Of a stretch of 64,000 nucleotides of DNA, positions 1,734 through 35,538 are shown in pieces. The stretch comes from Sporosarcina oncorhynchi (GTDB lineage Bacteria; Bacillota; Bacilli; Bacillales_A; Planococcaceae): assembly GCF_033304615.1 (NCBI RefSeq), contig NZ_CP129118.1, positions 1,236,001-1,300,000 of the forward strand. The letters are read 5' to 3'. Made by a program: the position numbers and the translations under genes. The notes beneath the pieces are model-generated. The model was not told the DNA's origin, made no database searches, and saw nothing but the letters and a program-made list of their open reading frames with translations. Position 1 is the stretch's first letter. Each line of letters starts with the position of its first letter.

Positions 1734-1759
1734 GAATTTGCAAGATCAGTGGATTACTC

Positions 1760-2166
1760 TACGTTTCGATACGCGAGCTTTACGTTGTGTTACGAGGCGT
1801 TTACGTTTCGATACGAGGAGTCTACGTTGTGTTGCGGGGAGTCTACGTTTCGATACGAGCCTTCTACGTTGTGTTACGCCGTCTACGTTTCGATACGCGG
1901 TCTCTACGTTGTGTTGCGGGGAGTCTACGTTTCGATACGAGCCTTCTACGTAGTGTTACGCCGTCTACGTTTCGATACGAGAGCTCTACGTTCTGTTACG
2001 AGGAGTCTACGTTTCGATACGAGCCTTCTACGTTTCGATACGCGAGCTTTACGTTCTGTTACGCGGCGTTTACGTTTCGATACGAGGAGTCTACGTTGTG
2101 TTGCGCCGTCTACGTTTCGATACGAGAGCTCTACGTTGTGTTACGGGGAGTCTACGGTTCGATGCG
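1760..2166 (+). repeat. Repeat array 1: 20 units of a 14-bp core with 7- or 5-nt spacers
   Basis: Twenty direct copies of a 14-bp core can be placed without gaps. Two core types alternate almost strictly: TACGTTTCGATACG (A) and TACGTTGTGTTACG or close variants (B). Only one A-A pair breaks the alternation (2008 and 2029). Spacers are 7 nt (such as AGGAGTC, AGCCTTC, AGAGCTC, CGAGCTT, GGGAGTC), giving a 21-bp period. After three B units (1865, 1947, 2092) the spacer is the 5-nt CCGTC. Units 4-6 and 8-10 repeat as an 82-bp block. The last unit (2153-2166) is degenerate. All three forward frames stay open because 21 is a multiple of three, but no frame has a ribosome site, and the 19-nt units shift frame. 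The array fills the rplT-ysdA gap. Confidence 0.92.
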
Positions 2167-2259
2167 AAAGGACCACATTAAAATCACACGAAATTTCAAA
2201 TATAAAATCTCACTTTCCCCAGCCATTCCGGTGTAGAATAGTAGGAGGGAGTTGAGTGT

Positions 2260-34133: not shown

Positions 34134-34580
34134 ATGGTAGAATATTTTTTGGTTTTTCTAGGGGCAGCAATACCGTGGTTTGAGATTGCATTAGTTATCC
34201 CGCTTGGCATTATTCGGGGACTTTCACCTATTTGGGTAATGATACTTGCGTTTGTCGGGAATATGTCGACTGTATTGATTGTCATATACGGATTTCAACG
34301 TGTGCAACAATGGATGGATAAGCGAATGGAAAAGAGCGGGAAGACTGCCACTAAAAGGACCGAGCGAGGGAAGCGCATTTGGAATAAATATGGGATGCCT
34401 GGGCTGGCGTTATGCGGACCGATTTTGATTGGAACACACATAGCAGCCTTCATCGGCCTTTTGTTCGGCGCTACGAAAACAAATACGACTATATGGATGA
34501 CAATTAGTATCGCTTTCTGGACGCTCGTTTTCGGCCTGGTGACTGCTGCAGGGTTTGATTTCTTTGTTAGAAACTTTTAA
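34134..34580 (+). CDS. Small multidrug export family membrane protein
   Basis: 148 residues with four to five membrane helices and the pattern GAAIPWFEIALVIPLGI, then GNMSTV and KYGMPGLALCGPILIGTH, which I recognise from the Sm_multidrug_ex family. Despite the name, the activity is poorly established. ATG 34134 follows ACGGAGG by about 8 nt. It ends just before a terminator and the second repeat array. Confidence 0.78.
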   Translation: MVEYFLVFLGAAIPWFEIALVIPLGIIRGLSPIWVMILAFVGNMSTVLIVIYGFQRVQQWMDKRMEKSGKTATKRTERGKRIWNKYGMPGLALCGPILIGTHIAAFIGLLFGATKTNTTIWMTISIAFWTLVFGLVTAAGFDFFVRNF

Positions 34581-34601
34581 TGTAGATATAAATTTGGTGT
34601 G

Positions 34602-34630
34602 CGCGCAACTTCTAGTTGTGCGTTTTTTTT
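34602..34630 (+). terminator. Terminator before repeat array 2
   Basis: CGCGCAACT / AGTTGTGCG, loop TCT, then eight T. Array 2 begins only 21 nt later, as array 1 begins 26 nt after the rplT terminator. Confidence 0.88.
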
Positions 34631-34651
34631 ATTTGGTGCGCCTGCAAAAAA

Positions 34652-35255
34652 TTCGTTACGACGAGGTTACGTTTCGATACGGAGCATCTACGTTTCGATA
34701 CGACGCAGTTACGTTTCGTTACGCCTGCTACATTTCGATACGGGACATCTGCGTTTCGATACGCCGTCTTTACGTTTCGTTACGCCTGCTACATTTCGAT
34801 ACGGAGCGTCTACATTTCGATACGAGGGATCTACGTTTCGTTACGACGCAGTTACGTTTCGTTGCGCCTGCTACATTTCGATACGGAGCATCTACGTTTC
34901 GATACGAGGGATCTACGTTTCGATACAACGCAGTTACGTTTCGTTACGCCTGCTACATTTCGATACGGGACATCTACGTTTCGATACGCCGTCTTTATGT
35001 TTCGTTACGCCTGCTACGATTCGATACGGAGCGTCTACATTTCGATACGAGGGATCTACGTTTCGTTACGACGCAGTTACGTTTCGTTGCGCCTGCTACA
35101 TTTCGATACGGCACATCTACGTTTCGTTACGAGGTATCTACGTTTCGATACGCCGTCTCTACGTTGTGTTGCGTCTGCTACATTTCGATACGGAGCATCT
35201 ACCTTTCGATACGAGACATCTACGTTTCGTTGCGCCGCAGTTACGTTGTGTTGCA
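34652..35255 (+). repeat. Repeat array 2: 29 full units and one partial of the array-1 family
   Basis: A partial unit (34652-34660) and 29 full 14-bp cores can be placed end to end up to 35255. Main cores are TACGTTTCGATACG, TACATTTCGATACG and TACGTTTCGTTACG; two late units (35160, 35242) have the TTGTGTT centre typical of array 1. Spacers are 7 nt (GAGCATC, GAGCGTC, AGGGATC, ACGCAGT, GGACATC, CCGTCTT), except a 5-nt CCTGC (once TCTGC) after seven units, always after a core with a GTT centre and always before a TAC(A/G)-ATTCG type core. Units from 34729 repeat at 34954, a 225-bp duplication of 11 units. Same strand orientation as array 1; flanked by two terminators facing inwards. Confidence 0.92.
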
Positions 35256-35274
35256 AACTATCCTAGTTATACGA

Positions 35275-35313
35275 ATAAAAACAGCCCGATGGATTGTCCC
35301 CCCATCGAGCTGT
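35275..35313 (-). terminator. Terminator of sspI
   Basis: ACAGCCCGATGG / CCATCGAGCTGT with a minus-strand T run (plus A run 35276-35281). It directly follows array 2. Confidence 0.85.
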
Positions 35314-35328
35314 CTTCGTACCAAGTCT

Positions 35329-35538
35329 TCATCCAGTAAATGCTTGTGCAAGTTCACCGGTGATCTTTGACTTCTCCTGCTCATCCGCATTAATCCATAA
35401 CTTTTCAAAAAACACGCCTAGACCGGGCAAAAGGTGTTCCTCGCCACGTTTTAGAGCATCTTCTACAACGTTCCGTATATCATCCGCGGAGTTATTTGTC
35501 ATGTTCGCGGTGATTGCGTCACGGATTTGAAAATTCAT
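35329..35538 (-). CDS. sspI: Small acid-soluble spore protein I
   Basis: 69-residue minor spore protein of the SspI family, starting MNFQIRDAITANMTNNSADD and containing the conserved EEHLLPGLGVFFE. It is made in the forespore and is distinct from the alpha/beta DNA-binding SASPs. The ORF extends to 35568, but AGGAGGA lies before ATG 35538. In B. subtilis it is likewise next to ysgA and pheST. No clear sigma-G promoter stands out in the 93-nt divergent gap. Confidence 0.9.
   Translation of the reverse strand: MNFQIRDAITANMTNNSADDIRNVVEDALKRGEEHLLPGLGVFFEKLWINADEQEKSKITGELAQAFTG

Follow-up and report, generated by a model that had tools for sequence, protein, structure and literature searches.

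Results

Array 2 and its neighbourhood

The window analysed in this work is a stretch of 64,000 nucleotides from Sporosarcina oncorhynchi (contig NZ_CP129118.1, positions 1,236,001 to 1,300,000). Array 2 (34652..35255, + strand) lies in this window between the two members of a convergent gene pair. The upstream gene (34134..34580, +) encodes a small membrane protein of 148 aa and ends at the array. The convergent gene (35329..35538, −) encodes, by its translation, a protein of 69 aa which we take to be an SspI-like small acid-soluble spore protein. The initial annotation had placed the array between two inward-facing terminators, and both are indeed present as the terminators of this gene pair. 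The intrinsic terminator of the 148-aa gene (34601..34633, +) was called by the terminator scan at 34601-34623 with a T-run. The terminator-like hairpin of the convergent gene (35276..35313, −) was read from the sequence, where ACAGCTCGATGG and CCATCGGGCTGT are followed by TTTTT; it is absent from the scan because of its 9-nt loop.

Array 2 belongs to the TACGTTTCGATACG family and advances in steps of 21 and 19 bp. It consists of one partial unit (core TTCGTTACG, 34652-34660) and 29 full units whose starts range from 34668 to 35242, which agrees with the earlier count. A period of 225 bp was detected by TRF over 34668-35236. The first copy of this internal duplication (34729..34953, +) is 92% identical to the second (34954..35178, +), so that the recurrence of the units from 34729 at 34954 was correctly recognised. 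The 18 differences between both copies indicate that the duplication is real and not fresh.

Array 1 of the same family (1758..2167, +) is located between an L20-like ribosomal protein gene and a DUF1294-like gene, and its cores TTTCGATACG and GTGTTACG occur in alternation. The short spacer is CCGTC in array 1 and CCTGC in array 2 (six times, with TCTGC once), as had been noted from the window. The two cores of array 2 that had been assigned to the array-1 type, at 35160 and 35242, are both of the GTGTTGC type that is frequent in array 1. A TTGATTGTGTTGCG-type core that flanks the second NERD gene of Sporosarcina quadrami (L209 and L313) resembles the GTGTTGCG cores within arrays 1 and 2, which suggests from sequence resemblance that both arrays may be mosaics of two related families.

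A protein-coding repeat was ruled out for array 2, as the mixed 21- and 19-bp steps break any frame. Three overlapping open frames on the + strand (271, 246, and 216 aa) traverse the array within 34555-35370; all three are open only because the unit contains no stop codons. Such spurious frames are an annotation hazard. A hairpin of RNA or DNA was rejected, as folding of the array is no better than that of shuffled sequences (z −0.57), and a search of the array with Rfam models gave no match.

The site of array 2 is also occupied in S. quadrami, where a contig starts inside an array at the same place. No such array was found at this site in 28 more distant genomes except G037. There, the same gene as at array 2 is followed by a 21/42-bp array (L283) whose core is unrelated, so that this site may attract arrays.

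Dispersed core family in the S. oncorhynchi genome

The initial annotation had proposed a dispersed family from two arrays. This was right and understated, as the closed genome (3.48 Mb) carries 23 arrays of the TACGTTTCGATACG-core family with about 590 units. Each unit consists of a 14-bp core (TACGTTTCGATACG) and a spacer of 7 or 5 bp, which gives the 21- or 19-bp steps. Among 563 unit steps, 434 are of 21 bp, 123 are of 19 bp, and six are of other lengths. The commonest order of steps is 21-21-21-19, giving a higher-order period of 82 bp. The exact core pattern occurs 228 times in the genome while the reversed control occurs 0 times, which excludes a chance origin.

The core and the spacer differ in their conservation. 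In units with a 7-bp spacer, the information content is 1.1-2.0 bits at the 14 core positions and 0.2-0.7 bits at the spacer positions. The 5-bp spacers are 81% identical within arrays and 47% identical between arrays, a difference that was reached in 0 of 300 permutations. For the cores, identity is 86% within arrays and 84% between them. The local homogenisation that had been proposed for the family therefore holds for the spacers and fails for the cores. Since the spacers are private to each array and the cores are alike across arrays, something acts on the core genome-wide. A phage or plasmid origin of the arrays was rejected, as no array match was found among 50,697 phage and 72,556 plasmid records.

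Comparison of arrays between species

The exact core pattern is abundant in only two of 68 genomes of the genus, S. oncorhynchi and S. quadrami. Most S. oncorhynchi arrays have a counterpart in S. quadrami at the same site and in the same orientation with a different number of units (39 and 19, 45 and 33, 29 and 15, and 22 and 28 units, respectively). These differences between orthologous arrays bear out the proposal that array 2 grew by block duplication together with turnover of units. As most array sites are common to both species, spread is slow; a precise pair of a filled and an empty site was not found.

Other species have arrays with diverged or unrelated cores and the same 21/19 steps. 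In families with unrelated cores, 735 of 1021 steps are of 21 bp and 184 are of 19 bp. Some families exhibit a strict 20-bp step instead, namely ACGCATAA and AAACTCCAAA (L164 of G009 and L269 of S. oncorhynchi). One array beside a NERD gene (L149, G198:C15:240800-243000) has a period of 112 bp, in which four steps of 21 bp are combined with one of 28 bp.

Association of arrays with NERD-domain genes

The genes that adjoin arrays in different species were compared all against all, and one recurrent protein was identified, which carries a NERD domain. In S. oncorhynchi its gene is located at genome positions 764655-765662, bracketed by two arrays of the core family (764287-764611 and 765785-766026). 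This gene is about 0.5 Mb from array 2 and outside the window. The initial reading of the locus is partly supported: dispersal, block duplication, and turnover hold, and the main point, the NERD gene with its widespread link to arrays, was beyond the view of the annotation. Among the 68 genomes, this NERD ortholog is confined to the two with the abundant core pattern (identities of 100% and 91%; the next best match has 59%).

NERD (PF08378) is the sole significant Pfam match of the protein (47.5 bits, with a gathering cutoff of 22.1), and its homologs score 44-64 bits. The alignment of 24 diverse NERD proteins exhibits invariant D89, E102, and K104 and four invariant Cys residues, with the caveat that the row of L269 lacks one match to the Cys spacing. 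The D, E, and K residues make up a PD-(D/E)xK-type nuclease motif and the cysteines a zinc ribbon, and the C-terminal region is conserved as well. Judged by these motifs, the protein is a predicted nuclease. Solved structures gave no useful match to it, and an AlphaFold model made without an alignment was set aside (pLDDT 37.5). NERD homologs were identified in 235 of 261 genomes of the family, often several per genome, and no relatives were confirmed in viral contigs. The NERD loci are syntenic within species groups even where the cores differ, which indicates vertical descent with drift of the core.

The flanks of NERD loci were scanned for arrays with a period of about 20.5 bp without the use of any core sequence. 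Such an array lies within 1.5 kb of 66 of 73 NERD loci of the family and in two of 76 random windows (Fisher p 2e-31). Within 300 bp, an array is present at 61 of 72 NERD loci, and the median distance is 59 bp among the loci with an array. Array density is higher near the origin, so random sites matched for position served as the control: of the origin-proximal random sites in S. oncorhynchi, 11% have an array within 300 bp (binomial p ~1e-46). Arrays of this period are found at two of 28 loci of a control gene and at 21 of 27 NERD loci from other families of Bacilli. Seven NERD loci of the family and six from outside it have no detectable array, and other TRF periods are not enriched near NERD loci. 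The pairing of NERD genes and arrays is general across Bacilli, with cores that are largely lineage-specific.

Core specificity

The comparison of cores was restricted to arrays whose units carry 15 bits or more. Among two-sided loci with clean arrays, 16 of 17 share one core on both sides, and in 15 of these 16 the two arrays point the same way. All four NERD genes of S. oncorhynchi have arrays, and the core differs at each of them. The core beside one of these genes (473680-474624) was used to predict a second dispersed family, and this family was found: its two-unit pattern matched 357 times, spread over more than a dozen places, and the control 0 times. Over all pairs, NERD protein identity and core similarity are weakly correlated (Spearman 0.14, Mantel p 0.003), and similarity of the cores is clear only above about 70% protein identity.

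Discussion

Proposed mechanism and alternative explanations

We consider it probable that array 2 is a member of a dispersed family whose cognate protein is the NERD protein encoded at 764655-765662, and that this protein recognises the core and drives the turnover and spread of the arrays. Behind this reading stand the pairing of gene and array, the common core on both sides, the recurrence of the pairing with lineage-specific cores, vertical inheritance, the intact motif, and the turnover in array length. The NERD protein would bind its own 14-bp cores at sites about two helical turns apart, with the zinc ribbon and the C-terminal domain as the probable binding parts. The 21/19 rule fits such a spacing, and 20 bp is avoided in the core family. 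The nuclease domain may then nick or cut at the arrays, and repair would add, delete, and copy units and occasionally seed arrays in other intergenic sites. Recognition in trans would hold the cores uniform genome-wide while the spacers drift. Against this reading weigh the weak overall correlation of protein identity with core similarity, the NERD loci that have no detectable array, and the slow spread. Extended to the whole group, with moderate confidence, NERD-zinc-ribbon proteins would be sequence-specific, array-recognising nucleases of Bacilli at large, unrelated to transposases, of which several per genome would each maintain and spread their own satellite-like family with a geometry of two helical turns.

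The alternative that survives best, although we regard it as unlikely, is that the system serves the host in chromosome organisation. The NERD proteins would be DNA-binding organisers or segregation factors, the arrays would be clustered operator-like or centromere-like sites, and the nuclease fold would serve for binding or rare cutting. The arrays of several families do lie near the replication origin (seven of seven origin-proximal 20-kb samples against one of 13 others). The N3 family (core GCGCYCGTAA) fits this proposal as well: none of its listed arrays is farther than 0.49 Mb from the origin, and 15 of the 16 listed point with replication. Vertical inheritance of NERD and the array sites common to S. 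quadrami would also be expected. However, the core family of array 2 is neither significantly biased towards the origin (KS p 0.10) nor significantly polar (15 of 23 arrays). For a core cellular task, it would be odd to find several paralogs in one genome whose cores are unrelated and change fast, and the nuclease residues of NERD are invariant.

A role in defence or counter-defence is improbable; here the NERD nuclease would be directed against foreign DNA, with arrays that mark, titrate, or regulate it. Known defence proteins, PglW among them, do contain NERD domains, but comparison of the NERD protein with the PADLOC and NCBIfam defence models gave only weak, sub-threshold matches and no significant one. 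The spacers are not foreign-looking, and the phage and plasmid records searched hold no array match. Passive tandem repeats, with slippage and recombination as the only forces and NERD genes merely located in array-rich regions, are already disfavoured and hardly credible: gain and loss of units and block duplication are expected from slippage and local array density is high near the origin, but the cores are conserved genome-wide while the spacers diverge, NERD loci far exceed position-matched sites in their arrays, one core stands on both flanks of a NERD gene, and the core beside one such gene foretold a second dispersed family.

Comparison with known repeat systems

In the REP/RAYT system, a DNA-processing enzyme is encoded by a vertically inherited gene, and the repeat at the flanks of this gene occurs in scattered intergenic sites as well (PMC2817692, PMC8049555). 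The NERD-array system likewise has a single-copy, vertically inherited DNA-processing gene with cognate repeats, and the intergenic dispersal of the repeat is also found here. However, the enzyme is a NERD and zinc ribbon protein and not an IS200/IS605-type (Y1/HUH) transposase, the repeats are non-palindromic direct arrays and not palindromic, hairpin-forming REPs, and the arrays on the two sides of a NERD gene mostly point the same way, in contrast to the inverted REPs around rayt genes. There are also several paralogous NERD-array families per genome. Since the enzyme family, the palindromic repeats, and the inverted flanks all differ, the NERD-array system is not filed under REP/RAYT.

The NERD-linked arrays resemble plasmid iterons in their spacing. 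Iterons are direct repeats about 19-22 bp apart, or roughly two helical turns. Unlike iterons, the NERD-linked arrays are chromosomal, dispersed over many loci, and up to 59 units long. They have no adjacent replication initiator gene: array 2 lies between the membrane protein and SspI-like genes, and its proposed cognate locus is the NERD gene. VNTR-type arrays such as MIRU and STAR are intergenic and variable in unit number. The NERD-linked arrays share both features but differ in having a linked cognate gene, a core that is fixed genome-wide, the 21/19 step rule, and a sequence that is replaced between species. Short, regularly spaced repeats beside a nuclease-type gene also recall CRISPR. 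However, the spacers of 5-7 bp are too short to encode memory (CRISPR spacers are unique and about 25-40 bp), Cas proteins are absent, and the NERD-linked repeats evolve as unit families.

No description that links NERD to repeat arrays was found in the open-access literature. We rate the pairing as a gene-repeat partnership that is new in kind, with a precedent for its abstract logic in REP/RAYT. The NERD domain, which defines a large and poorly understood protein family, gains a concrete DNA partner, and bacterial satellite-like arrays would be explained by a cognate gene. The many paralogous pairs of protein and core are a ready set for decoding how NERD proteins read DNA. Should these proteins nick or cleave DNA at their cores, they would represent natural enzymes that process DNA sequence-specifically and whose targets can be read; should their role lie in chromosome organisation, the arrays would show where it takes place.

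Other repeats in the genome

The origin-proximal third of the S. oncorhynchi genome (20-kb samples L372-L375 and L389-L391) is crowded with arrays of about 20-21 bp period that carry further cores such as AACCGCTCAAC and AAGCGGTGATAGAC. Arrays of this period are nearly absent from the samples away from the origin (L376-L388). A conserved 23-nt element found near some arrays is absent from the arrays of the array-2 core family. A conserved element near ATTTGTCAAAAGCATTCAGCGCGA, in contrast to the fast-changing cores, adjoins arrays from several families and occurs in two species (L269, L270, L373, and L375; L105 and L164 of G009). Repeats with a period of 120-121 bp that are not obviously of the 20.5-bp type were also identified in the S. 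oncorhynchi genome at 1751417-1751768, 3454911-3455407, 99305-99569, and 91929-92183.
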